Positions 1-50,499 of a stretch of DNA of 64,000 bases are shown here, one piece after another. The stretch is from NCBI GenBank assembly GCA_026122225.1, contig JANEZZ010001900.1:930001-994000 (forward strand), in the 5' to 3' direction. Under the pieces are notes generated by a model. That model searched no databases and was not told the origin of the DNA. It saw only the letters and a program-made list of their open reading frames with translations. Both the position numbers and the translations under genes were made by a program. How positions within the stretch are numbered: the first letter of the stretch is position 1; each line of letters starts with the position of its first letter. Origin of the DNA: Heloderma charlesbogerti. Lineage: Eukaryota > Chordata > Lepidosauria > Squamata > Helodermatidae.

Positions 1-686
1 GCCATTTCCAGGTAAAAAAACACAAAAAACAAAAAAAGTGATAGGCTACATAAAGATTTACTTAGCCAATCACGGCTAGATTTAAAAAAAACACTGTGAT
101 AGGCTACGTAAATCTTTACGTAGCCTATCACAGCTGATTAAACAAAAAACATGCGTACGCAAATGGTGGCGCCCATGGGCGCCGCCATTTGCGCTCCTTA
201 TTTTGGCACGTCTTAGTCTATGTAAACATTTACGTAGACTAAGACGGCGAAAATAAGGGGAACACAAATAGCGTAGTGTCTACGTTATTTGCATTCCCCT
301 TATTTTCGCCATCTTAGTCTACGTAAATATTTATGTAGACTAAGACGTGCCAAAATAAGGAACGCAAATGGCGGCGCCCATGGGTGCCGCCATTTGCGTA
401 TGCGCGTTGTTGTTTTTTTAATCAGCCGTGATAGGCTATGTAAACATTTATGTAGCCTATCATGGCTGACTGCAGGGACGCAAACGGCGGTGGCCACGGC
501 CGCCGCCATTTGTGTCCCTGCTAGCCAGCGGCCGGATGTCCGGCTGCTGGCGGAGCCGGCCAGCGGCTCCGCAGAATCCCTGCAGAGCGGAGCTGGCCGG
601 CCAGGATTCGGGGGGGAGGAATGGAACGCCTCCCCCCCAGCATCAGCATAATCTGCGGAAAGGTAAGTACCTTTCGTACATCCCTA
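1..686 (-). mobile_element. Palindromic hAT-like non-autonomous element, copy 1 (cut by window edge)
   Basis: The right terminus reads GTACATCCCTA and ends at 686, followed by the single-copy-looking ctgcaaat. The other terminus lies outside the window. Orientation is called minus because this terminus is the left one in the reference-like copy at 27635. The interior is a chain of perfect or near-perfect short palindromes: GTGATAGGCTACGTAAA-type units (about 41-84, 96-131, 429-463), CTTAGTCTACGTAAA-type units (about 211-243 and 312-345), and CAAATGGCGGC/GCCGCCATTTG units. Just inside the end is an outward GGTAAGT at 662-668. The 3' flank contains no sequence resembling the element. hAT membership is inferred from the terminus and from 8-bp duplications seen at sister copies; no transposase is encoded. 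Confidence 0.85.
96..463. repeat. Long nested palindrome, centre near 278
   Basis: The two halves of copy 1 are reverse complements of each other for about 180 bases each way. The centre is the 27-base hairpin 265-291 (12-base arms, 3-base loop). Each arm itself contains complete smaller palindromes, so the structure is hierarchical. Arm offsets differ by only one or two bases, indicating few net indels. Confidence 0.85.
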
Positions 687-2328: not shown

Positions 2329-2523
2329 GCCCCACCTAGGGATGTACAAAAGTCGCTTACCTTTTAATGAAATTGATTTGCGGTGGGGGGGAGGCACTCT
2401 GTCCCTCCCCCCCTGAAATTCTGGCTGGGGGGGGAGGTGTTCTGTCCCCCCCCCAAATCCTGGCCGGCTGGGTCCGCAAATGGCGGCGGCTGTAGCCGCC
2501 ACCGTTTGCGTCCCTGCAGTCAG

Positions 2524-3044
2524 CCGTGATAGGCTATGTAAATGTTTACATAGCCTATCATGGCTGATTTAAAAGGAAAAAAAACGCGCATACGCAAATG
2601 GCAGCGCCCATGGGCACCGCCATTTGCATTCCTTATTTTGACACGTCTTAGTCTACTTAAACATTTACGTAGACTAAGACGGCGAAAATAAGGGGAACGC
2701 AAATAGCGTTGACACGTCTTAGTCTATGTAAACATTTACGTAGACTAAGATGGCGAAAATAAGGGGAACGCAAATAGCGTAGACGCTACGCTATTTGCGT
2801 TCCCCTGATTTTCGCCATCTTAGTCTACGTAAATGTTTAAGTAGACTAAGACGTGTCAACGCTATTTGTGTTCCCCTTATTTTCGCCGTCTTAGTCTACG
2901 TAAATGTTTACATAGACTAAGACGTGTCAAAATAAGGAACGCAAATGGTGGCGCCCATGGGCGCCGCCATTTGCGTACGCGCAGTTTTTTTTCTTTTAAA
3001 TCAGCTGTGATAGGCTACGTAAACATTTACGTAGCCTATCACGG
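2524..3044. repeat. 521-base hierarchical palindrome
   Basis: Position 2524 pairs with 3044 and the centre falls at 2784, in the loop of the hairpin caaatagcgtag-acg-ctacgctatttg (2771-2797). Arms therefore have equal length. Each arm contains, from outside in: a GTGATAGGCTAYGTAAA palindrome, an A-rich spacer, a CAAATGG(C/T)(A/G)GCGCCC palindrome, and two CTTAGTCTAYGTAAA palindromes. In single-stranded form it could fold as one long hairpin or as a series of small ones. Confidence 0.88.
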
Positions 3045-3090
3045 TATTTTAAAAAAATCTAGCCGTGATAGGCTACGTAAATCTTTACAT

Positions 3091-3272
3091 AGCCTGCCTA
3101 TCACGTTTTTTTGTTTTTTGTTTTTTTTTACTGGAAATGGCGGCGGCAGCAGCCGGTCGGAAGACCGGCCACCGCCGCCGCCGCTGCCGCCCCGCCGCCG
3201 AACTGCCGCCGCAGCCTGCCTATCACTTTTTTTGCTTTTGGGTTTTTTTTTACTGGAAATGGCAGTGGCGGC
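3091..3272. repeat. 122-base tandem duplication inside copy 2
   Basis: agcctgcctatcac occurs at 3091-3104 and 3213-3226, and actggaaatggc at 3130 and 3252; both offsets are exactly 122 bases. The duplicated unit covers the end of the last palindrome, the T-rich tract and the start-codon/GGC tract. Sister copies have a single version. Confidence 0.8.
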
Positions 3273-3481
3273 GGCGGCATCTCACATTCCCCTTCATGGA
3301 TCACTGCCTTGTTGTGGCGAAGGGGCTTGCGTAACTCACTGAAGCCATAAGCTATGCCGTGCAGGGCCACCCAAAACGGACAGGTCATGGTGGAGAGTTC
3401 TGACAAAATGTGGTCCACTGGAGAAGGAAATGGCAACCCATTCCAGTATTCTTGCCAAGAAAACCCCATGGAATGTATCAC

Positions 3482-3837
3482 TAGGGATGTACGAAAGTCA
3501 CTTACCTTTCGCGGATTATGTTGATGGGGGGGGAGGCATTCTGTCACTCCCCCCGGAATCCTCGCCGCGGGGAGGCGATCCGTTCCTCCCCCCCCGGAAT
3601 CCTCCACGGCCGGCTGTGCTCCGCGGCAGCTCCGTGGAGCAGCCAGCCAGGCCCAGCCAGGCCAGAGCCATCTGCAGCCGGATTTCCAGCCACGGAGGGC
3701 TCGGGAGGGGGGGAACTGCGTACACAAATGGTGGCGGCTATGGCCGCCGCCATTTGCGTTCCTTAGTTTGGGCCGTCTTAGTCTACATAAATATTTACGT
3801 AGACTAAGATGGCGAAAATAAGGGGAAGACAAATAGC
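3482..3837 (+). mobile_element. Palindromic hAT-like element, copy 3 (right half lost)
   Basis: Starts TAGGGATGTACGAAAG directly after BovB sequence ending tgtatcac. It carries the inverted GGTAAG donor just inside, the GC-rich subterminal block, one CAAATGGTGGCGGC palindrome and one CTTAGTCTACATAAA palindrome. It ends at caaatagc, a few bases before what would be the element's palindromic centre, and joins BovB 3' sequence with a shared GC. The right half and about 2.4 kb of BovB were evidently removed by one deletion. Confidence 0.85.
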
Positions 3838-14318: not shown

Positions 14319-15596
14319 GTTGTATTGTTTGTTTGTTGTTTATTCGTTCAGTCATTTCCGACTCTTCGTGACTTCATGGACCAGCCCACGCCAGAGCTTC
14401 CTGTCGGCCGTCGCCACCCCCAGCTCCCCCAAGGTCGAGTCCATCACCTCCAGAATATCATCCATCCATCTTGCCCTTGGTCGGCCCCTCTTCCTTTTGC
14501 CTCCCACTTTCCCTAGCATCAGCATCTTCTCCAGGGTATCCTGTCTTCTCATTATGTGGCCACAGTACTTCAGCTTTGCCTTTAATATCATTCCCTCAAG
14601 TGAGCAGTCTGGCTTTATTTCCTGGAATATGGACTGGTTTGATCTTCTTGCAATCCAAGGCACTCTCAGAATTTTCCTCCAACACCACAGTTCAAAAGCA
14701 TCTATCTTCCTTCACTCAGCCTTCCTTATGGTCCAGCTCTCGCAGCCATAGGTTACTACGGGGAATACCATTGTTTTCACTATGCGGACCTTTGTTGTCA
14801 GTGTAATGTCTCTGCTCTTCACTATTTTATCAAGATTTGTCATTGCTCTCCTCCCAAGAAGTAAACGTCTTCTGATTTCCTGGCTGCAGTCTGCGTCTGC
14901 AGTAATCTTTGCCCCTAGAAAGACAAAGTCTGTCACTGCCTCCACGTTTTCTCCCTCTATTTGCCAGTTATCAATCAAGCTGGTTGCCATAATCTCGGTT
15001 TTTTTGAGGTTGAACTGCAACCCAGCTTTTGCACTTTCTTCTTTCACCTTCGTCATGAGGTTCCTCAGCTCCTCCTCACTTTCAGCCATCAAAATGGTAT
15101 CATCTGCATATCTGAGATTGTTAATGTTTCTTCCAGCAATTTTAACTCCAGCCTTGGCTTCATCAAGTCCGGCACGTCGCATGATGTGTTCTGCGTACAG
15201 GTTGACTAGGTAGGGTGAGAGTATACAACCCTGCCATACTTCTTTCCCAATCTTAAACCAGTCTGTTGTTCTGTGGTCTGTTCTTACTGTTGCTACTTGG
15301 CCATTATACAGATTCCTCAGGAGGCAGACAAGATGACTTGGTATCCCCACACCACCAAGAACTTGCCACAATTTGTTATGATCCACACATAGGAATGTCG
15401 GAGAATTCTGCCACGGATCCCGCTAGGGCTGAATGCCAGTGCATTCGGCCCCCCGAAATCTGTGGTGAAACGAAGCCCCCTGCCCCCCCCACCCTGCAAA
15501 AGGCACGTGAAACGGGACACTTACCTGGTGCCGTTCGCACTGCTTTGCGAATGGCGGCCGCGTCTGCAGCCACCATTCGCTTCCCTATTTTTGCTG

Positions 15597-15779
15597 TGAT
15601 AGGCTACGTAAATACTTAAATATTTAAGTTTAAGTAAATATTTTATACTTAATATTAAGTAAATATTAATTAAATATTAAATTAAATATTAATTTTTAAT
15701 ATTAATTAATTTTTAATATTAATTAAATATTAAGTAAATATTTAATACTTAATACGTAAATACTTAAGTAGCCTATCAC
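15597..15779. repeat. AT-expanded palindrome, about 183 bases
   Basis: The outer arms are the standard GTGATAGGCTACGTAAA and TAGCCTATCAC halves. Instead of the normal 1-2 base centre there are about 150 bases made only of A and T plus occasional TAAGT/ACTTA units. These units are mostly TTAATATTAA-like and self-complementary. Centre near 15688. It appears to have grown from the palindrome's own TAAATA/TATTTA core. Confidence 0.85.
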
Positions 15780-15849
15780 GGCTAACGCAGGGATGCCATT
15801 TGCGTCCCCGTGGAGGCCGTGATAGGCTACATAAATATTTACGTAGCCT

Positions 15850-16643
15850 TAGGGATGTACGAAAGTCACTTACCTTTTCGACGGGGTGATTCGCAGTGGG
15901 GGGGAGGTGCTCCGTCCCTCCCCCCTGAAATTCTGGCTGGCTGGCTCCACTCCGCAGGGATTCTGCGGAGCTGCCGGCCAGCTCTGCCAGCGGCTGGACA
16001 TCCGGCTGCTGGCTAGCAGGGACGCAAATGTGTCCCTGCAGTTTGTGTCCCTGCAGTCAACCGTGATAGGCTGCGTAAATGTTTACGTAGCCTATCACGG
16101 CTGATTTAAAAGAAAAAATACCCACGCATACACAAATGGCGGCGCCCATGGGCGCCGCCATTTGCGTTCCTTATTTTGGCACATCTTAGTCTACGTAAAC
16201 ATTTACGTAGACTAAGACGGCGAAAATAAGGAACACAAATGGCGGTGCCCATGGGCACTGCCATTTGTGTACGCGCTTTTCTTTTCTTTTAAATCAGCCG
16301 TGATAGGCTACGTAAACATTTACGTAGCCTATCATGGTGTTTTTTAAAAATCTAGCCGTGATAGGCTACGTAAATCTTTACGTAGCCTATCACGTTTTTT
16401 TGTTTGTTTTTTTGTTTTAACTGGAAATGGCGGTGATGGCAGCCGGTCGGAAGAAATGGTGGTGACCGGCCGCCACAGCCTCCGCCGCCGAACCACCACC
16501 GGAGCTGCCGCCGCCAGGAAGATCCGCCCAAGGTAAGTCCCATCCCAGGGGGTGGCAGACCGTTCCTCCACTGATTTTGGGGGGCCGAATGCGCTGGCAT
16601 TCAGCCTCCCCGAGATTCGTGGCGGAATTCTCTGACATCCCTA
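15850..16643 (+). mobile_element. Palindromic hAT-like element, copy 5 (nested in copy 4), complete
   Basis: Complete 794-base copy with left terminus TAGGGATGTACGAAAG, right terminus CTCTGACATCCCTA and exact 8-bp target duplication cgtagcct (15842-15849 and 16644-16651). The target lies inside a palindrome of the host copy. It has the inverted donor at 15868-15876 and the outward donor ggtaagtcc at 16531-16539. Its core is shorter than in copies 1 and 2: the central CAAATAGCG hairpin is missing and the centre now sits on a CTTAGTCTACGTAAA palindrome (about 16185-16220). The exon-like start codon at 16427 is followed by a stop after 12 codons. Confidence 0.95.
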
Positions 16644-19220
16644 CGTAGCCTATCACAGCAAAAAAAACAGTAACACAAATGGCGGCCACTAAACAATTTG
16701 TGCCCCTGTTGTTGTTTTTTGCTTTGATAGGCTACATAAATATTTACGTAGCCTATCACGGCCAAAAAACAGGAACGCAAATGTCAACCAACATAGCTGC
16801 TGCCATTTGCATCCGCGAAGCCGGCCGGGTTAGGATTTCGTGGGGAGGTGCAGAGCGAATCCCACCGTGACCCACCCACCACAAATCACCCCGTCGAAAA
16901 GGTAAATTACTTTCGTACATCCCTATCCACACAGTCAAAGGCTTTAGCATAGTCAATAAAACAGAAATAGATGTTTTTCTGAAACTCCCTGGCTTTCTCC
17001 ATTATCCAGCAGATATTGGCAATTTGGTCTCTAGTTCCTCTGCCTTTTCAAAACCCAGCTTGTACATCTGGCAATTCTCGTTCCATGAATTGCTGGAGTC
17101 TACCTTGCAAGATCTTGAACATTACCTTACTGGCATGTGAAATAAGTGCCACTGTTCAATCGTTTGAACATTCTTTAGTGTTTCCCTTTTTTGGTATGGG
17201 GATATAAGTTGATTTTTTCCAATCTGATGGACATTCTTGTGTTTTCCAAATTTGCTGGCATATGGCATGCATCACCTTGATAGCATCATCTTGCAAGATT
17301 TTAAACAGTTCAGCTGGGATACCGTCATCTCCTGCTGCCTTGTTATTAGCAATGCTTCTTAAAGCCCATTCAACCTCACTCTTCAGGATGTCTGGCTCTA
17401 ACTCACTGACCACACCATCAAATCTATCCCCGATATTATTATCCTTCCTATACAGATCTTCTGTATATTCTTGCCACCTTTTCTTGATCTCTTCTGCTTC
17501 TGTTAGGTCCTTGCCATCTTTGTTTATGATCATACCCATTTTTGCCTGGAATTTACCTCCGATGTTTCTAATTTTCTGGAAGAGGTCTCTTGTCCTTCCT
17601 ATTCTTCCACTTCTGCACATTGCTTGTTTAAAAATAATTCCTTATCTCTTCTGGATAACCTCTGGAATTTTGCATTTAATTGGGCATATCTCCCCCTATC
17701 ACTGTTGCCTTTTGCTTTCCTTCTTTCTTGGGCTGCTTCCAGTGTCTCAGCAGACAGCCATCTTGCCTTCTTGGTTTTCTTTTTCTTTGGGACGTTTTTT
17801 GTTGCCGCCTCCTGAACAATGTTGCGAACTTCTGTCCATATTTCTTCCAGGACCCTATCTAGTAAATCTAGTCCCTTAAATCTATTCTTCACCTCCACTG
17901 CATATTCATTAGGAATATTAGTGAGCTCATATCTAACTGAGCTGTGGGTCTTCCCTATTCTCTTTAGCCTGATTCTAAATTGTACAATAAGAAGTTCATG
18001 ATCTGAGCTACAGTCAGCTCCAGGTCTTGTTTTTACCGACTGTAGAGAGGTCCGCCACCTTTGGCTACAAAGGATGTAGTCAATCTGATTTCGGTGTCGA
18101 CCATCTGGTGAAGTCCATGTATAAAGTCATCTTTTATGTTGTTGGAAGAGAGTGTTTGTTATGCACAGTGAGTTGTCTTGGCAAAATTCTATCAGCCTAT
18201 GTCCTGCTTCATTTTATTCTCCCAGACCATGCTTGCCTGTAATTCCAGGTGTCGTTTGACTACCCACCTGAGCATTCCAGTCTCCTGTTGAAAATAACAT
18301 CTCTTTTTGGCATATTTTCCAATAGGTGCTGCATCCTCATAGAACTGATCTACTTCTGCTTCTTCAGCATCTAAAGTGGTTGGGGTGTATATTTGGATCA
18401 CTGTGATGTTAAATGGCTTTCTCTGAATTCGAATTGAGATCATTCTGTCATTTTTTGGACTGTATCCAAGCACTGCTTTAGCCACTTTATTATTAATTAT
18501 GAAGGCTCCTCCATTTCTTCTGTGGTCCTCTTGTCCACAGTAGTAGATCTGGTGGTCATCTAATATGAAGTGGCCCATTCCAGTCCATTTCAGTTCACTG
18601 ACATCCAGAATGTCTATATTTAATCTTGACATCTCCCCAATAACCACATCCCATTTGCCCTGGCTCATAGATCTTACATTCCAGGATCCTATGGTGTGTT
18701 GATCTTTAGAACATCGGATTCGTCGTTCACCACCAGCACCATCGGCTGCTAGCCATCCTTTCGGCTTTGAGCTAGCTGCGTCATCAAATCTGGGGCTAGT
18801 TGAACTTATCCTCTGTTCCTCCCCAGTAGCATTTTGACCATCTTCTGACCTGGGAGTCCCATCTTCCAATGGTATACCGACATATCTCTGGTTGTACTGG
18901 TCCATTTAGTTTTCACAGCAAGAATACTGGGGTGGGTTGCCGTTACCTTTCCCAGGGATCATATTTAGTCTGACCTCTCTGCCATGACCTTCCCATTTTG
19001 GGTGTCCCTTCACGGTTTAGCTCATGGTGTCATTGAGGTGCTCAAGCTCCAGCACCACAACAAAGTAACAATCTCCTTTGCTGTAGGTTGTATTGTTAGC
19101 TGATGTAAAAAGTGGCTGATAATGTGAAAAGTAAAATGACTAGTCCAGGCTCCTCTAGAACCCTAAAATTTGGTCAACCATACTCACTTCTTCCACAGAC
19201 ACCACTGCTACTCTCTAGAG

Positions 19221-27300: not shown

Positions 27301-27634
27301 ATTTGTACCCTACTTTTGTACCAAGAAAATGGTACTCAAGGTGGCTTACAATCATAAGAACTATACAAAAATTTTAAGTGAAAACTTGATTAAAACAATA
27401 ATAAAACAAACATATTAAAAACACAACAATAACAGAATAAAACCACACCCAAACCAACAGTCCAGCTTATATGCCAAATGCCTGCTTGAATAAAAAAGGA
27501 CAACAGAGATGGAGCCAACCTAACCTCCCTCGGTAGGGAGTTCCATAGCCTGGGAGCAGCCATTGGAAAGGCCCTCTCTTGAGTTACCGCAAACATGCCC
27601 CTGAAGGAGACAGTACCAAAAGAATGACCTCTCC

Positions 27635-28532
27635 TAATGAGGTAAGAAATTGGCCTTACCTGGCTCCGCCGGGTTCCGCTGGTGGGGGAGGCGCTCCGTC
27701 CCTCCCCCCGGAATCCTGGCTGGCTGGCTCCGCTCCGAGGGGATTCCGCAGAGCTGCCGGCCGGACATCTGGCTGCTGGCTAGCAGGGACGCAAATGGTG
27801 GTGGCTGTAGCCGCCACTGTTTGCGTCCCTGTAGTCAGCCGCGATAGGCTATGTAAATCTTTACGTAGCCTATCACGGCTGACTTTAAAACAAAAACGCA
27901 TGTATGCAAATGGCGGCAAATGGCTACGGCCGCCGCCATTTGCGTTCCTTATTTTGGCCCGTCTTAGTCTATGTAAATATTTATGCAGACTAAGACGGCG
28001 AAAATAAGGGGAACGCAAGTAGCGTAGCGGACGCTATTTCTGTTCCCCCTTATTTTCACTGTCTTAGTCTACGTAAATATTTACGTAGACTAAGATGGGC
28101 CAAAATAAGGAATGCAAATGGCGGCCGCCGTAGCCACCGCCATTTGCGTACGCGCATTTGTTTGTTTTTTAAAGTCAGACGTGATAGGCTACGTAAAGAT
28201 TTACGTAGCCTATCACATCGTTGTTGTTTTTTTAACCTAGCCATGATAGGCTACGTAAAGATTTACGTAGCCTATCACGTCTTTTTTTTTTACACTGGAA
28301 ATGGCGGCAGCGGCGGCCAGTCAGAAGACCGGCCGCCGCACCCACTGCTGCCACAGCCACCGCCGCTGCAGCTGCTGCTACCCGGAAGATCCGCCCCAGG
28401 TAAGTCTCGTCCCAGGGGGGATCCGTGGGGTGGCGGGGGGGTGGCAGGCCATTCCGCCACGGAGTTCGGGGGGCCGAATGCACTGGCATTTGGCCTCACT
28501 GAGATCCGTGGCAGAATTCTCTGCCATCCCTA
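27635..28532 (+). mobile_element. Palindromic hAT-like element, copy 6, complete (898 bases)
   Basis: Left terminus decayed (taatgaggtaagaaat), right terminus CTCTGCCATCCCTA. Flanks acctctcc (27627-27634) and acctttcc (28533-28540) match at 7 of 8 positions. This copy shows the full layout: left terminus, GC-rich subterminal block (tccccccggaatcctggctgg), CAAATGGTGGTGGC palindrome, GTGATAGGCTACG palindrome, CTTAGTCTACG palindrome pair around a centre near 28030, two further GTGATAGGCTACG palindromes (28189-28216 and 28245-28278), T-rich tract, exon-like module (28301-28399), donor, a GGATCCGTGG segment and the right terminus. Confidence 0.92.
28301..28399 (+). other. Exon-like module: 33 open codons ending at a splice donor
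   Basis: A start codon in gaaATGG context opens 33 codons (alanine run, then arginine/cysteine/histidine-rich) that end exactly at ccccag|gtaagt. The homologous module on the minus strand at 46988-46881 is open for 36 codons and also ends in phase 0 at the same donor. Copy 2 (3137 onward) is open up to its truncation; copy 5 is closed after 12 codons. The start lies within a YY1-like AAATGGCGGC motif, and an ETS-like CCGGAAG lies just before the donor. GC-rich composition alone tends to keep frames open, so coding is not demonstrated. Confidence 0.45.
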
Positions 28533-28639
28533 ACCTTTCCTGAACGTCTTAAAACCCAGGCAGCCTGGTATAGGAGAAGGTCCCAAGCCACATAGAGCTT
28601 TATAAGTCATAACCAGCATTTTGAATTGTGCCTGGACAC

Positions 28640-29128
28640 TAGGGATGGGCAAATTAGGTTGCGTTCTGCTCGCCGGACCTCCACTGGCTACCTGCCCCTG
28701 CTCACCACATGCAGTGAGTCGGTGGTCCACAACCACCCAGCAACTGGTGCACAGCTGCCTGATCCTTTGCCAAGCCTCCATTTTGCATAAAAATGGTGGC
28801 TCAGCCTTTTTCATAAAGGCAGATTTTATGCAAATGGTGGCAGTAAAGCAGCCATTCACACAAGATTACAGGAAGAAACGGCCATTTACACCTGTAATCT
28901 TGCATAAATGTTCACTTTACTGCCACTATTTGCATAAAATCGGCCTTTCTGAAAAAGGCCGTGCCATCATTTTGCAGCTTGGCAAGGAATCGGGGATCCC
29001 CGCACTTGCCTGACTTGGTGCATGCTGAGTCGGGCAAGTGCGGAGATCTGCAGACTGGGGTCCAGGGGCCCAAGCTGGCTATTTCTCACTGGGCCTCAAG
29101 CCCCAGCCAGATGCCTGCCACATGCCTA
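28640..29128 (+). mobile_element. Second palindromic hAT-like family, complete (489 bases)
   Basis: Termini TAGGGATGGGCAAATTAGG and GCCACATGCCTA. Flanks ctggacac (28632-28639) and ctggaaac (29129-29136) match at 7 of 8 positions, and removing the element restores the L2 sequence. The core is an inverted repeat (about 28761-28991) with arms around 110 bases containing ttgccaag, ttttgcataaaatggtgg and caagattacagg. The tandem short palindromes of the TAGGGATGT family are absent, so this is a different family with the same type of ends. Confidence 0.85.
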
Positions 29129-33252: not shown

Positions 33253-36200
33253 CCCCTTCATGGATCACTGCCTTGTTGTGGTGAAGGGGCTTGCGTAACT
33301 CAGTGAAGCCATAAGCTATGCCGTGCAGGGCCACCCAAGACGGACAGGTCATGGCAGAGAGTTCTGACAAAATGTGGTCCACTGGAGAAGGAAATGGCAA
33401 CCCACTCCAGTATTCTTGCCAAGAAAACCCCATGGAACGTATCACAAGGCTAAAAGAGATGACGCCGGAAGATGAGCCCCTCAGGTCGGAAGGTGTCCCA
33501 TATGCTACTGGGGAAGAGCAGAGGGTATTTCCAAGTAGCGCCAGAAAGAGTGAAGCGGCTGGGCCAAAGCCGAAAGGACACTCAGCTGTGGATGTGTCTG
33601 GCGGTGAAAAGAAAATCCGATGCTGTAAAGAACAATATTGTTTAGGAACCTGGAATGTCAGATCAATGAATCAAGATAAGCTGGAGGTGGTCAAACATGA
33701 GATGGCAAGATTGAACATCGACATCTTGGGAATCAGCGAACTAAAATGGACAGGCATGGGCGAATTTAATTCAGGTGACCATCATATCTACTATTGTGGG
33801 CAAGAATCCCTTAGAAGAAATGGAGTAGCACTCATAGTCAACAAAAGGGTGGGAAAAGCAGTACTGGGGTACAATCTTAAAAATGATAGAATGATCTCAG
33901 TACGAATCCAAGGCAAACCATTCAACATCACAGTAATTCAAGTCTATGCCCCAACCACTGATGCCGAAGAAGCTGAGGTTGATCGGTTCTATGAAGACCT
34001 ACAACACCTTCTAGAACTAACACCAAAAAAAGATGTCCTCTTCATCATAGGGGATTGGAATGCTAAAGTAGGAAGTCAAGAAATCACCAGGATAACAGGC
34101 AGGCATGGCCTTGGTATACAAAATGAAGCAGGACAAAAGCTAATAGAGTTTTGCCAAGAGAACATGCTGATCATAGCAAACACTCTTTTCCAACAGCACA
34201 AGAGGCGACTCTACACATGGACGTCACCAGATGGTCAATATCGAAATCAGATTGATTATGTCCTTTGCAGCCAAAGATGGAGAAGCTCCATACAGTCAGT
34301 AAAAACAAGACCTGGAGCTGACTGTGGCTCAGATCATGAGCTGCTTCTTGCAAAATTTCGGCTTAAATTGAAGAACGTCGGGAAAACCACTAAACCGTTC
34401 AGGTATGATCTAAATCATAGCCCTGATGAATATACAGTGGAGGTGAGGAATAGATTTCAGGGATTAGACCTGATAGACAGAGTGCCTGAGGAACTATGGA
34501 CGGAGGTCCGTAACATTGTTCAGGAGGCAGCAACGAAATCCGTCCCAAAGAAAAAGAAATGCAAGAAAGCCAAGTGGCTGTCTGATGAGGCTTTACAAGT
34601 AGCTGAGGAAAGAAGGGAAGCGAAAAGCAAGGGAGAAAGGGGAAGATATATCCAACTGAATGCAGAGTTCCAGAGAATAGCAAGGAGAGACAAGAAGGCC
34701 TTCTTAAATGAACAATGCAAAGAAATCGAGGAAAACAACAGAATGGGAAAGACTAGAGATCTCTTCAAGAAAATTGGAGATCTCAAGGGAACGTTTTGTG
34801 CAAAGACGGGCATGATAAAGGACAAAGAAGGCAGGGACCTAACAGAAGCAGATGAGATTAAGAAGAGGTGGAAAGAATACACAGAAGAACTATACAGGAA
34901 AGATCTTAATGTCCCTGATAGCCATGATAGTGCGGTCACTGAACTTGAGCCGGACATCCTAGAGAGTGAAGTCAAGTGGGCCTTAGGAAGCATTAGTAAC
35001 AACAAAGCTAGCGGAGATGACAGCATTCCAGCCGAGCTATTTAAAATCCTAAAAGATGATGCTGTTAAAGTGCTGCATTCAATATGCCAACAAATCTGGA
35101 ACACTCAACAGTGGCCACAAGACTGGAAAAGGTCAGTTTACATTCCATTTCCAAAGAAGGGCAACGCCAAAGAGTGTTCAAACTACCGCACAATTGCGCT
35201 CATTTCACATGCCAGCAAGGTGATGCTCAAAATCCTACAAGCTAGGCTTCAGCAGTATGCGAACCGAGAACTACCGGAAGTACAAGCTGGGTTTCGAAGA
35301 GGCAGAGGAACTAGAGATCAAATCGCCAACATTCGCTGCATCATGGAGAAAGCAAGAGAATTCCAGAAAAACGTCTATTTCTGCTTCATTGACTACGCTA
35401 AAGCCTTTGATTGTGTGGATCACAACAAACTGTGGCAAATTCTTAAAGTGATGGGAGTACCAGACCACCTTACCTGTCTCCTGAGAAACCTGTACGAGGG
35501 TCAAGAAGCAACAGTAAGAACCAGACATGGAACAACCGATTGGTTCAAAATTGGGAAAGGAGTACGACAAGGCTGCATATTGTCACCCTGCTTATTTAAC
35601 TTATATGCAGAGTACATCATGAGAAATGCCGGGCTGGATGAATCAGAGGTCGGAATTAAGATTGCTGGGAGAATTATCAACAACCTCCGATATGCAGACG
35701 ATACCACCCTAATGGCAGAAAGCGAAGAGGATCTCAAGAGCCTCTTGTTGAGGGTGAAAGAGGAGAGTGCAAAAGCTGGTTTGAAACTCAACATTAAAAA
35801 AACTAAGATCATGTCATCTGGCCCTATCACTTCCTGGCATATAGAAGGGGAAGAAATGGAAGCAGTGGCAGATTTTACTTTCTTGGGCTCCAAGATCACC
35901 GTAGATGGTGACTGTAGCCATGAAATTAAAAGACGCTTGCTCCTTGGGAGGAAAGCTATGGCAAACCTAGACAGCATAGTAAGAAGCAGAGACATCACCT
36001 TGCCGACAAAGGTCCGTCTAATCAAAGCTATGGTTTTCCCAGTAGTAATGTATGGCTGTGAGAGCTGGACTATAAGGAAGGCTGAGCGCCGAAGAATTGA
36101 TGGTTTCGAACTGTGGTGCTGGAGAAGACTCTTACGAGTCCCCTGGACTGCAAGGAGGTCAAATCAGTCCATCCTAAAGGAAATCAACCCTGAGTGTTCA

Positions 36201-36473
36201 TTGGAAGGACAGATAATGAAGCTGAAGCTCCAATATTTTGGCCACCTAATGCGAAGAGAAAACTCCCTGGAAAAGACCCTGATGCTGGGAAAGACTGAAG
36301 GCAAAAGGAGAAGGGGACGGCAGAGGATGAGATGGCTAGATAGCATCACGGATGCAATGAATATGAACTTGAGCACGCTCCGGGAGAGAGCGCAGGACAG
36401 GAAGGCCTGGCGTGCTATGGTCCATGGGGTCACGAAGAGTCGGACACGACTGAACGACTGAACAACAACAACA
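33253..36473 (+). mobile_element. Full-length BovB (RTE) LINE with 11-bp target duplication
   Basis: The 11-mer agttttgttta flanks it at 33242-33252 and 36474-36484. It begins ccccttcatggatcactgcc and ends in the BovB 3' signature cgaagagtcggacacgac, then a short (AAC)n tail. 3221 bases, the size of a complete RTE/BovB unit. The duplication is perfect and the ORF unbroken, so the insertion is likely the most recent of the LINEs here. BovB elements are known to move horizontally among squamates, ruminants and other animals, but this window gives no evidence on when it entered the lineage. Confidence 0.95.
33318..36461 (+). CDS. BovB ORF: AP-type endonuclease + reverse transcriptase, intact
   Basis: 1047 codons without a stop. 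The protein nicks chromosomal DNA and reverse transcribes its own RNA at the nick (target-primed reverse transcription). Endonuclease about residues 108-345: GTWNVRSMN near 110, SELKWTGMGEF, GDWNAKVG at 245-252, and the catalytic SDH at 338-340. A lysine/arginine-rich linker follows. Reverse transcriptase about 560-880: SNYRTIALISHASKVMLK, AGFRRGRGTRDQI, motif A FIDYAKAFD at 690-698, motif B RQGCILSPCLFNLYAEYI, and catalytic YADD at 792-795. The C-terminal domain (about 930-1047) has WTARRSNQSIL and HLMRREN. Database searches often label such ORFs craniofacial development protein 2-like; that is a retroelement name. The true start could be a later methionine, since residues 1-107 overlap the 5' UTR-like region. 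Whether it is transcribed is unknown. Confidence 0.93.
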   Translation: MPCRATQDGQVMAESSDKMWSTGEGNGNPLQYSCQENPMERITRLKEMTPEDEPLRSEGVPYATGEEQRVFPSSARKSEAAGPKPKGHSAVDVSGGEKKIRCCKEQYCLGTWNVRSMNQDKLEVVKHEMARLNIDILGISELKWTGMGEFNSGDHHIYYCGQESLRRNGVALIVNKRVGKAVLGYNLKNDRMISVRIQGKPFNITVIQVYAPTTDAEEAEVDRFYEDLQHLLELTPKKDVLFIIGDWNAKVGSQEITRITGRHGLGIQNEAGQKLIEFCQENMLIIANTLFQQHKRRLYTWTSPDGQYRNQIDYVLCSQRWRSSIQSVKTRPGADCGSDHELLLAKFRLKLKNVGKTTKPFRYDLNHSPDEYTVEVRNRFQGLDLIDRVPEELWTEVRNIVQEAATKSVPKKKKCKKAKWLSDEALQVAEERREAKSKGERGRYIQLNAEFQRIARRDKKAFLNEQCKEIEENNRMGKTRDLFKKIGDLKGTFCAKTGMIKDKEGRDLTEADEIKKRWKEYTEELYRKDLNVPDSHDSAVTELEPDILESEVKWALGSISNNKASGDDSIPAELFKILKDDAVKVLHSICQQIWNTQQWPQDWKRSVYIPFPKKGNAKECSNYRTIALISHASKVMLKILQARLQQYANRELPEVQAGFRRGRGTRDQIANIRCIMEKAREFQKNVYFCFIDYAKAFDCVDHNKLWQILKVMGVPDHLTCLLRNLYEGQEATVRTRHGTTDWFKIGKGVRQGCILSPCLFNLYAEYIMRNAGLDESEVGIKIAGRIINNLRYADDTTLMAESEEDLKSLLLRVKEESAKAGLKLNIKKTKIMSSGPITSWHIEGEEMEAVADFTFLGSKITVDGDCSHEIKRRLLLGRKAMANLDSIVRSRDITLPTKVRLIKAMVFPVVMYGCESWTIRKAERRRIDGFELWCWRRLLRVPWTARRSNQSILKEINPECSLEGQIMKLKLQYFGHLMRRENSLEKTLMLGKTEGKRRRGRQRMRWLDSITDAMNMNLSTLRERAQDRKAWRAMVHGVTKSRTRLND

Positions 36474-38387: not shown

Positions 38388-38455
38388 TAGGCTGCAATCC
38401 TGTACACACTTACCTGGGAATAAGTGCCACTGAACTAAATGGGACTTACTTCTGA
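38388..38455. repeat. Common squamate short repeat
   Basis: aggctgcaatcctgtacacac, then tgggaataagtgccactgaac and gggacttacttctgagt. Fragments of the same motif occur near 9945, 10810-10905, 27065, 29505-29550 and 63295. The origin is not resolved. Confidence 0.65.
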
Positions 38456-46749: not shown

Positions 46750-47258
46750 TAGGGATGTCAGAGAATTCCGCCACGGACCTCGGTGAGGCCAAATGCCAGT
46801 GCATTCGGCCCCCCGAAATCTGTGGCGGAATGGCCTGCCCCCCCCGCCCCCCCACGGATCCCCCCCGGGATGAGACTTACCTGGGGCGGATCTTCCGGGT
46901 GGCGGTGGCTCCGGCGGCGGCTCCAGCGGCGGCTCTGGCGAAGGTGGCGGCAGCGGCCAGTCTTCCAACCGGCTGCCACCACCACCATTTCCAGGCTTGT
47001 GAAAAAAAAAAAAAAGGACGTGATAGGCTACGTAAATCTTTACGTAGCCTATCATGGTTGGGGGTGGGTTAAAAAAAAAACCACGTACGCAAATGGCGAC
47101 GGCTACAGCCGCCGCCATTTGCGTTCCTTCTTTTTGGCCATTTTAATCTACGTAAATATTTACGTAGACTATGACGGCGAAAATCAAGGGGAACGTAAAT
47201 AGCGTAGCAGGCGCTATTTGCGTTCCTTTTTCATTCACCGTTTTAGCCTACGTAAATC
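46750..47258 (-). mobile_element. Palindromic hAT-like element, copy 7 (truncated at a palindrome centre)
   Basis: Starts TAGGGATGTCAGAGAATTCC. On the minus strand it has the exon-like module 46988-46881 (36 open codons, donor ctg|gtaagtctc read as cag|gtaag), then GTGATAGGCTACG, CAAATGGCGAC and CTTAGTCTACG-type palindromes and the CAAATAGCG centre near 47208. It ends at ttagcctacgtaaat within half a palindrome at about 47258, where unrelated DNA begins. No second terminus or target duplication. Confidence 0.85.
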
Positions 47259-48617: not shown

Positions 48618-49790
48618 GCCATTACTCACACCTCCTGCAGCTGATATTGAGGAATTCGGGGTAAAATGTTTTCATTTCTCCAAAGTATGGGAAGGGGAAC
48701 ATTCACATGAGTGGGGTAAAACAGAATCTCTGCATGATGGTGCCATGGCCAGACAGATAGATAAGAACATTCTGCTGTATAATGAGATTAAAATCCAGAT
48801 TAACTAGGTTGGAATTCTGAGCATCATAAATGGTGTTTAGTGACTTTTCATTCCACCTTTTGAGCAAAGGCTGAATAAATGTGTGTTCAAAAGTAGAACC
48901 ACTTTTCTCTCTCAAATAAGAAGGTGAGAAAGCCTAAGGTAAAACTGAGCATAAATGACCAATCCAGTCTTTGAACCTTTAAATGTACTGCCTTTGTCAT
49001 GGGGTCTCCCATGGCTGTGCCAACAGACACTTCCAAATCCTGCAACTAGCAGAGAAAACACCCCATGTTAGCACCTGGCAGGGAAGGAATCCATTACTAA
49101 AAATCAAATACACAGATCCCGTGAAAATATGCCAGAACATAGTAATGGAAGTGCCATTTTAATGTGTTTTTAGAGAAAGCCTTGATAGAAGGAGGGGAAA
49201 ACTATTTACCATAAAGGGCATTACTACCCAAAGGACACCTCCAGACACTCGCAGATAAGAATAAAAAGAAATAGTGCTGGAAAGTCTAAAAATGTATGAG
49301 AAAGTGTAGCATGAGGAAGAATATAGAAGTAACTTCACTGATGTCTCTTTGGCATGAAATTTATAGAGGGGAGTCTCCCTTGGGAGCTCTGTCTTTGCAT
49401 CACCTATGGAGGGACTAGGTCTAGGATGTTTCAATGGGCTTTTCAGATTAAAGCAGTTTTGTTTGGGCCTTTTAGGACAGAGCCCCCTCCCTTTTTTAGG
49501 AGAGGGAAGTTTTTCTTCCCTTTTCTATGCAGACCTTGTATTTGGGGGGCTACTGTATGGCTCACTACTCTAGCTCTGTTCAGGCATTATGACTGATCAG
49601 AAAATATCAACCTGAGCTGGGACACAGGGCTGCGCTCTGGCCCTGACTCCAACACTCCCACAACACCCCTCACAACACATCTTTGGAAGGCAAAATTCAC
49701 CCTACACATACACTTGTGCCTCTTCCCTCAAATGAGCATCCACTTTCTCCCCCCCCCTCCAGTGCAAGTGAGTCGATCACAAGTGAGCCA
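48618..49790. other. No gene recognised
   Basis: No supported ORF. G- and C-runs near 49490-49560 and 49745-49760 only. Confidence 0.45.
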
Positions 49791-49944
49791 CTAGGGTGTC
49801 AATCCTATGCACACTGCCTCGGAAGGCGCGAAGCAGGCTTCCGAGGCAGGCCCGATCTGGTTCGGGCAGATTTGGGGGGTGCCCCTACCCACCTCAGCCC
49901 TGAATCCAAATCAGGTTCCCCCCTGACACCCCACACAACCCCCC

Positions 49945-50265
49945 AGCTCCTTACCTGGGCTGCCCCCTCCTCTGCTGCTGTCACCTTCGCCTCCTCCCCG
50001 CCGCTGCTGTCTTCGCCACCATCTTCGCTGCCTCCACCTCCGCTGTCTCCTGAGGCCTGGACACATGGCGACTCTTCTTGCAGGGAGTCAGAATTTTTAA
50101 AATGGCAACCTCCTGGAAGTTCCAGGAAGTTGCCATTTTAAAAATGGTGACTCCCTGCAAGAAGAGTCACCACGCGTCCAGGCCTCAAGAGGTGGCGTAG
50201 CGGTGCAGCAGAGGCAGCAGCAGCAGCACGGCGGCAGTGAGGAGAAGACGGCTCAGGTAAGGCCC
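49945..50265. repeat. GC-rich palindromic element with outward splice donors on both arms
   Basis: Inverted repeat centred at 50119 (tcctggaagttccagga). Inner arms are almost perfect: ttgcagggagt / actccctgcaa, and aatggcaacc / ggaagttgccatt. Outer arms are GC-rich and less similar, containing GCTGCTG/CAGCAGC tracts and gtccaggcctc. Each arm ends with an outward donor: minus strand cccag|gtaagg at 49950 and plus strand ctcag|gtaagg at 50255. The surrounding GC-rich DNA (about 49795-50445) probably belongs to the same element, but its termini are not clear. Confidence 0.75.
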
Positions 50266-50499
50266 TGGAGGTGCTGGGGGGGCTGGGCAGGGGGCCGAAG
50301 CGCACTGAGCCCCCAACCCACTCCAGGCCACTTCATGCCCCCTCTGCTTCGCCTCGGAAGGGGCACAAAGTGGCCTGAAGCAGCCCGCTTTGACTTGAGG
50401 TTTGGGCCTTGGGCCGAAGTGGTGCACAGCCTTACTTGAAAGGGAGCCTAGTAGAGGTGGAACAGACATCATGAGCACACGCACACATACCGGGCAGTA

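Follow-up and report, generated by a model that had tools for sequence, protein, structure and literature searches.

Among described elements, the nearest to the family treated here is Ac/Ds of maize, a hAT system with terminal inverted repeats (TIRs) reading C/TAGGGATGAAA and target-site duplications (TSDs) of 8 bp, and in particular those Ds elements with filler DNA, whose nonautonomous bodies are unrelated to the transposase gene, as passages of one account have it (PMC3260210). Animal genomes also contain nonautonomous hAT elements, among them Mar of Drosophila (PMC3517528) and hAT-6N1_XT_ESp of a fish (PMC11008031). MITE-like elements of Anopheles gambiae take palindromy furthest: in 6 of 32 clusters the entire element consists of palindromic repeats, which the relevant passages describe without hAT assignment or internal hierarchy (PMC3212995). 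A possible analogue in function is zebrafish hAT-N38_DR, which provides a transcription start within a gene; in the portion of the study concerned, it and other DNA transposons give rise to testis-specific alternative starts, in single copies and with RNA data (PMC9341505).

The family described here was predicted from the window, that is, the whole 64-kb stretch of DNA analysed, as a set of hAT-like elements built almost wholly of nested palindromes. It shares with Ds the C/TAGGGATG... ends, the 8-bp TSD and a body unrelated to the transposase gene; it differs in that the likeness to the Ac/Ds TIR extends over only 8 bases, the body is a hierarchy of palindromes and donor-like sites point outward near both ends. 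No animal hAT MITE is known to have a nested modular palindrome array or paired outward donors. Unlike the zebrafish case, the promoter role considered below would act in both directions, and it is read from a design common to several subfamilies. Two results are new beyond the original prediction: the linked change of the two mirror arms, and the outward pair of donor-like sites. Taken as a whole, the reading to which we would give a little less than an even chance is that of a hAT element without a transposase of its own, in which template switching maintains the likeness of the palindromes and the body serves as a putative two-way promoter with built-in first exons.

Table 1. Positions in the window of the family copies (c1 to c7) and of the parts of copy c6
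Feature	Position	Strand	Remarks
c1	1..686	-	Subfamily I; window edge cuts B end; 121-bp mirror arms, 3-nt loop
c2	2337..3276	+	Subfamily I; extra Q-S block mirrored in both arms; B end missing
c2 mirror arms			259-bp arms around 3-nt loop
c3	3482..3837	+	B half missing; grouped with c6 and c7 in arm tree (support 0.937)
c4	15390..16925	-	Divergent, named subfamily IV here; interrupted by c5; A-side donor lost
c5	15850..16643	+	Complete subfamily-I element within P module of c4; TSD CGTAGCCT
c6	27635..28532	+	Complete, subfamily II, A to B orientation; left TIR decayed
c6 left TSD	27627..27634		ACCTCTCC
c6 A-side donor-like site	27654..27662	-	Outward; CAGGTAAGG in 28/35 aligned subfamily-II copies
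c6 hairpin module R0	27784..27831		CAAATGGCGGC type
c6 hairpin module P, left	27833..27884		GATAGGCTACGTAAA
c6 hairpin module R, left	27907..27943
c6 hairpin module Q, left	27959..27998		CTTAGTCTACGTAAA
c6 central hairpin module S	28008..28048		Centre of large mirror palindrome
c6 hairpin module Q, right	28062..28095
c6 hairpin module R, right	28114..28147
c6 hairpin module P, right 1	28181..28216
c6 hairpin module P, right 2	28244..28277
c6 putative GC-rich first exon	28298..28399	+	GAAATGGCGGC... to B-side donor; predicted from sequence
c6 B-side donor-like site	28397..28405	+	Outward; CAGGTAAGT in 24/35 aligned subfamily-II copies
c6 right TSD	28533..28540		ACCTTTCC; 7/8 match
c7	46750..47258	-	A end missing; grouped with c6 and c3 in arm tree (support 0.937)

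All seven predicted copies are found at the positions foreseen, far above chance: blastn of the window with six queries (the nested pair counting as one; E up to 1e-4) covers only these stretches, to within 5 bases. The copies stand out in composition, with a CpG observed/expected ratio of 0.82-1.24 vs 0.33 for the window; the ratio is 1.24-1.37 in the consensus sequences of subfamilies I and II and 0.96 in the single copy of subfamily III. Coding potential was considered and rejected, as none of four open frames (153-278 codons) taken from window copies matches a Pfam family at E <= 0.001. For c6, near-full-length relatives elsewhere in the genome have 81-86% identity.

Membership of the element in hAT is well supported: genomic copies combine 8-bp duplications with TAGGGATG ends, the test that had been set at the outset. 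Among 59 fetched loci (39 of subfamily II and 20 of subfamily I, picked from the best-scoring matches for completeness), the TSD is an exact 8 bp in 26, agrees at 7 of 8 positions in 12 and is lower in 21, the last group including loci with a lost end. The corresponding figures are 18, 8 and 13 of the 39 loci in subfamily II, and 8, 4 and 8 of the 20 in subfamily I. The three TSDs noted earlier in the window, two exact and one at 7 of 8, are also real: TCCACACA/TCCACACA flanks 15390-16925, CGTAGCCT/CGTAGCCT flanks 15850-16643 and ACCTCTCC/ACCTTTCC flanks 27635-28532. When c4 is removed and its flanks are joined, a reverse transcriptase frame (AKAFDCVDHNKLW) is restored, as in the open copy at 33315-36458. 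That open copy matches RVT_1 at 8.6e-39; it may be of BovB type, as would fit a squamate. A hAT transposase locus that has itself decayed contains two further insertions, flanked by TSDs GCTATAAA and GCAGTGGA and 76-78% like family consensus sequences over 518-565 bases.

The A end of the element reads TAGGGATGTACG, and at the B end stands TAGGGATGTCAGAG or TAGGGATGGCAGAG; these are short TIRs of the YAGGGATG type. Over a longer span the A end is TAGGGATGTACGAAA... and the B end TAGGGATG(T/G)CAGAG..., and the two have only 8-9 bp in common. The claim that all seven window copies share common ends holds in part: 15390-16925 (one end of which reads TAGGAATGT) and 15850-16643 each have two TAGGGATGT-like ends, and the other five do not. 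Of these five, 27635-28532 has no left TIR (TAATGAGGT stands there), and the remaining four are incomplete, having lost one end or running into the window edge. One genomic locus (L182; G000:C269:45931-48025) holds a 1699-bp tandem form with a single pair of ends and an exact TSD, CATTTTAC; the tandem was perhaps mobilised or duplicated as a unit.

The host assembly comprises 2.30 Gb in 3246 contigs, and the exact 32-bp core palindrome GATAGGCTACGTAAANNTTTACGTAGCCTATC occurs in it 35,697 times; the reversed control gives 0. As intact elements hold about three P modules and many are decayed, the number of elements is probably above ten thousand. A first look by two genome searches gave 15,307 and 12,591 candidates, sets that may overlap and of which part was scored. 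Complete copies measure about 727-958 bp; high copy number, fairly uniform length and absence of transposase coding capacity make the element a MITE, nonautonomous by the usual definition. Viral contigs lack the 32-bp palindrome and contain 18 stretches with a single P 15-mer each; a scan of genome contigs with one 15-mer, too short for the purpose, gave at least 120 stretches, those listed having one match each, which is taken as chance. Among the matches listed in open-licence PMC text we found neither a description of the palindromic family nor a P or Q fragment, and no paper there joins DNA transposon, bidirectional promoter, splice donor and YY1.

The palindromes themselves are far in excess of expectation. 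Within the window, GATAGGCTACGTAAA at up to 3 mismatches has 46 matches (0.82 expected) and CTTAGTCTACGTAAA has 43 (1.09 expected), two lists that overlap because only 3 bases distinguish the words. For CAAATGGCGGC, with up to 2 mismatches allowed, there are 49 matches vs 15.5 expected, not all of them within copies. Hairpins with short loops (arm length 9 bp or more, loops of at most 12) have arms that make up 30-47% of each copy, vs an average of 2-3% in dinucleotide shuffles (20 each) and, in 61 tiles of 900 bp from the other window sequence, an average of 4.5% and a maximum of 16.8%. Copy 6 folds 29 s.d. below 20 shuffles. The modular, hierarchical array originally proposed proves to be a property of the master sequences rather than of individual copies. 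The three kinds of palindrome then counted are too few: the subfamily-II consensus has 14 hairpins.

That consensus, 915 bp long, was built from 35 copies (c6 and 34 genomic loci, after exclusion of the tandem form and of four fetched loci that had lost ends), which lie 6.3-10.5% from it; its 14 hairpins form a chain that covers 56%. In the A to B direction the order is three GC-rich hairpins, R0, P, R, Q, S, Q, R, P, P, then a GC-rich hairpin and one more near the B end. The nine hairpins from R0 to the last P have stems of 16-25 bp with at most one mismatch. Palindromic units of about 36 bp are in this way strung along two larger arms that mirror each other about a centre. One arm is made up of P, R, Q and half of S; its mirror image takes the remaining half of S, followed by Q, R and P. 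These arms are internal (consensus positions 223-407 and the right counterpart), starting 222 bases from the A end. Subfamily III, known from one copy (L221:1200-2197), has two P modules per side and a TSD that is inexact by eye; it matches its own reverse complement over 578 bases, with 516 identities, 28 mismatches and 68 gaps. One P module of c4 (15596-15782) now spans about 185 bp, AT-rich and roughly self-complementary, which would suit a stepwise growth of palindromes.

The two mirror arms change together between subfamilies, a conclusion that is well supported. Majority sequences were built from 15 copies of I-short, 6 of I-long and 35 of II, one locus (L249) being counted with I-long and another with a II-like A end (L238) being left out of both I groups. 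Within each consensus the left and right arms hardly differ: 1/136 positions in I-short, 4/188 in I-long and 1/185 in II, where 184 of 185 aligned positions are identical, with two gaps. Arms of I-long and II differ from one another at 13-14 of 185 sites, and of the 16 sites that distinguish these subfamilies, 11 are changed in both arms and five in one only. The window arms tell the same story on a small scale. Ten arms (c4 left out) have 11 columns diagnostic for the split by subfamily vs three for the split by side, allowing up to one exception per column and with four of the 11 lying within one R loop; the subfamily split is the best among all 210 possible 6/4 splits, the next best having five columns. 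A tree of these arms groups c6, c7 and c3. Single events point the same way: at the mirrored pair 340/481 within subfamily II, 29 copies have C-G, five G-C and one G-G, and the extra Q-S block of c2 has an identical new junction, AATAGCGTTGACACGTCTTAGTC, in both arms, a junction seen in 0/112 genome loci examined.

Whether copies go on being corrected after insertion is a separate matter. Over all arm pairs there are 85 compensatory double changes, vs a shuffle mean of 62.4 (s.d. 6.2; maximum of 200 shuffles 77); at non-CpG pairs there are 25 vs 16.5 (s.d. 3.1, maximum 26), mostly in an A/T tract. Local hairpins are at chance level, with 60 compensatory changes vs 59.1, and 1 vs 0.9 at non-CpG pairs. 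Ongoing correction in fossil copies is consequently unsupported within local hairpins and doubtful between arms, and because it is not clearly seen there, we assign most of the arm copying to the lineage while it was active. Inverted repeats are known to be homogenised by template switching, in which one arm of a quasi-palindrome is copied onto the other (PMC8794818; PMC8604942); what differs here is that the process would recur within a lineage of transposons and on arms of about 120-260 bp. Template switching or fold-back repair would carry a change from one arm into the other, and the same copying could also lengthen palindromes. Even without a promoter role, the family is a natural record of inverted-repeat arms in concerted evolution; since both consensus arms show the same base changes, it might be used to measure how often, and over what tract length, one arm is copied onto the other in the germ line of a vertebrate.

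The second new result concerns sequences that look like splice donors. All GT sites in the window were scored against an approximate human donor matrix, the motif having been noticed before testing; eight of the 12 best sites fall in family copies and two in the palindromic element Y (below), and the other two are at 38408 in another repeat and at 35468 in the reverse transcriptase ORF. The copies together with elements X and Y occupy 9.5% of the window; above 8.5 bits they contain only 13 of its 58 sites. One inward site occurs in c6, at 27639, with 10.1 bits. Sites above 11 bits number exactly two in each of I-short, I-long, II and III, on the minus strand at the A side and the plus strand at the B side, so that both point outward. 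Each end has one, at a distance of about 20 bp in one case and about 96-136 bp in the other. In the sole copy of subfamily IV, c4, the B-side site is kept and the A-side site is lost (AAGGTAAAT). The B-side sequence AGGTAAGT is identical in all five sequences compared, while the bases preceding it differ in III and IV.

Genomic copies agree with this arrangement. In 54 complete copies (34 of subfamily II and 20 of subfamily I, five fetched II loci being left out) there are 84 sites of at least 11 bits, 47 at A and 37 at B, and 84/84 are outward; no inward or internal site reaches 11 bits in these copies. Both sites are kept in 33 of the 54, and 19.2 kb of flanking sequence has six sites of this strength. 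In 4000 shuffles of each sequence, an outward pair never arises from II or I-short and arises once from III. As the tests followed the noticing of the motif and the copies are not independent, the comparison of subfamilies and element Y weigh most. Intact B donors in 24/35 copies that are 6-10% diverged give no sign that the host keeps the donor. The outward direction also disposes of one candidate, removal of the element from transcripts through its own splice sites in the style of Ds; a strong donor would not be the first thing that host RNA encounters on running into the element.

What might such a design do? One possible answer, held tentatively and well short of an even chance, is a mobile two-way promoter with a palindromic core and two first exons, each ending in a near-perfect donor, whose halves are kept alike by arm-to-arm copying. 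The element would be moved in trans by a hAT transposase. Its CpG-rich palindromic core would start transcription in both directions; RNA would run outward through a GC-rich first exon and be spliced from the element's donor to host sequence, so that each copy may act as a mobile alternative promoter with first exons of its own. The likely gain for the element would be open chromatin or germline transcription, and with it accessibility to transposase. The putative exon of c6 is GC-rich and, judged by eye, of low complexity. Core repeats of AAATGGCGGC, which resembles the YY1 motif, number four on one strand and two on the other in I and II, and one on each in III; TACGTA occurs 8-11 times per I, II and III sequence and four times in IV. 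Consensus I and II lack AATAAA and ATTAAA, III has one AATAAA, and I, II and III sequences lack TATAAA and TGACGTCA. A donor placed downstream of a start is favourable to productive transcription: U1 snRNP holds back early polyadenylation, and the direction in which a promoter works is influenced by introns (PMC3826338, PMC4859611).

If this promoter reading is true, very many copies have seeded the genome with very many potential alternative promoters and chimeric first exons, and the wide spread of a gene-less DNA transposon that hands out ready-made first exons would be explained. The question of whether DNA transposons rewire vertebrate expression by design or by accident would then become testable with RNA from one species.

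Two other palindromic elements lie in the window. Element X (28640-29128) is a hAT-like MITE with ends TAGGGATGGGC and TAGGCATGT, a TSD of CTGGACAC/CTGGAAAC (7 of 8) and 92-bp mirror arms containing AAATGGTGGC; no donor-like site in it exceeds 8.5 bits. Element Y (49785-50440, bounds by eye) has ends reading CAATCCTATGCAC... and 81-bp mirror arms at 50038-50200. Its donors, CAGGTAAGG, are outward on both sides, at 49949-49957 on the minus strand and 50254-50262 on the plus strand. As an element with other ends has the same outward pair, the design may have arisen repeatedly or been shared between families.

The most serious competitor, which we think somewhat unlikely, keeps the hAT MITE and discards the promoter: ACTTACCT would be the inner part of the end recognised by transposase, an inverted subterminal motif (comparable to AAACGG of Ac) and no donor, and the palindromes a neutral by-product of template switching in a master that replicates. 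Sequence shared by the A ends of the subfamilies does run from the TIR to the motif and diverge just inside it, element X does without the motif, Ac has subterminal repeats (PMC3260210), and palindromes homogenised by template switching need no function (PMC8794818; PMC8604942). A single motif at each end, at the two distances given above, is however unlike a cluster of subterminal repeats. The motif moreover follows the donor consensus over 8-9 positions, which is not required of a binding motif; c4 retains it on the B side despite differing upstream bases, and element Y, with quite other ends, has CAGGTAAGG outward on both sides.

Two further explanations give the palindromes themselves the leading part. 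They could be functional arrays of dimeric sites for a protein, be it the transposase or one supplied by the host, and serve to tether copies or to increase transposition without any promoter role; the recurrence of TACGTA in I, II and III and more sparsely in IV would suit this, as would CTACGTAAA, common to P and Q within different flanks, but P and Q are set back from the ends by some 200 bases or more, their number varies among copies, and we regard such an array as improbable. Movement as a single-strand hairpin, in the manner of fold-back elements, instead of hAT cut-and-paste would account for the extreme fold-back potential and for mirror arms as long as those of c1 and c2 (121-259 bp). 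It is very improbable indeed given 8-bp TSDs, TAGGGATG ends and consensus-II arms that begin so far inside the A end. Nor does the family belong to the FB-like class by structure: in that class long terminal inverted repeats reach the ends, and here the arms are internal and the ends alike over 8-9 bp.

An autonomous partner with the same termini had been suggested, and the search for it succeeded in part. A profile search of the genome with PF05699 gave 871 candidates, of which 150 were scored as matches. At 16 of 30 hAT transposase loci the 3' end starts with TAGGGATGTACG (15 loci, 12 bases in common with the A end) or TAGGGATGTATG (L195), and at the other 14 no A-like sequence stands at the expected 3' position; no complete partner was delimited. 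One locus (L220) encodes an 883-aa ORF that matches Dimer_Tnp_hAT at 6.8e-17 and zf-BED just below the cut-off, and it is a plausible transposase source for the palindromic family, although the 5' end of the element with this ORF was not found. At the C1725 transposase locus the 3' end, TAGGGATGTACGCTGT, lies beside an (AC)n run, and no match to TAGGGATGTACGCTGT with up to 5 mismatches occurs in the 3.9 kb upstream. An open frame of 237 codons in this same C1725 locus has the subfamily III copy some 2 kb upstream of it, with the A-side donor of the copy pointing toward the frame, a placement that may be chance. Three other loci (L216, L217 and L219), 98.6-99.3% identical over about 4.6 kb, have an 879-aa ORF with a hAT domain and no exact TAGGGATG/CATCCCTA in the fetched stretch; they are perhaps another recent element or a multicopy gene. 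In the transposase family that comprises L186-L213, L218 and L220, the 3' end lies beside GT-rich tracts ending in TAG at 15 of 16 inspected loci, and this family may have a target preference for GT microsatellites.
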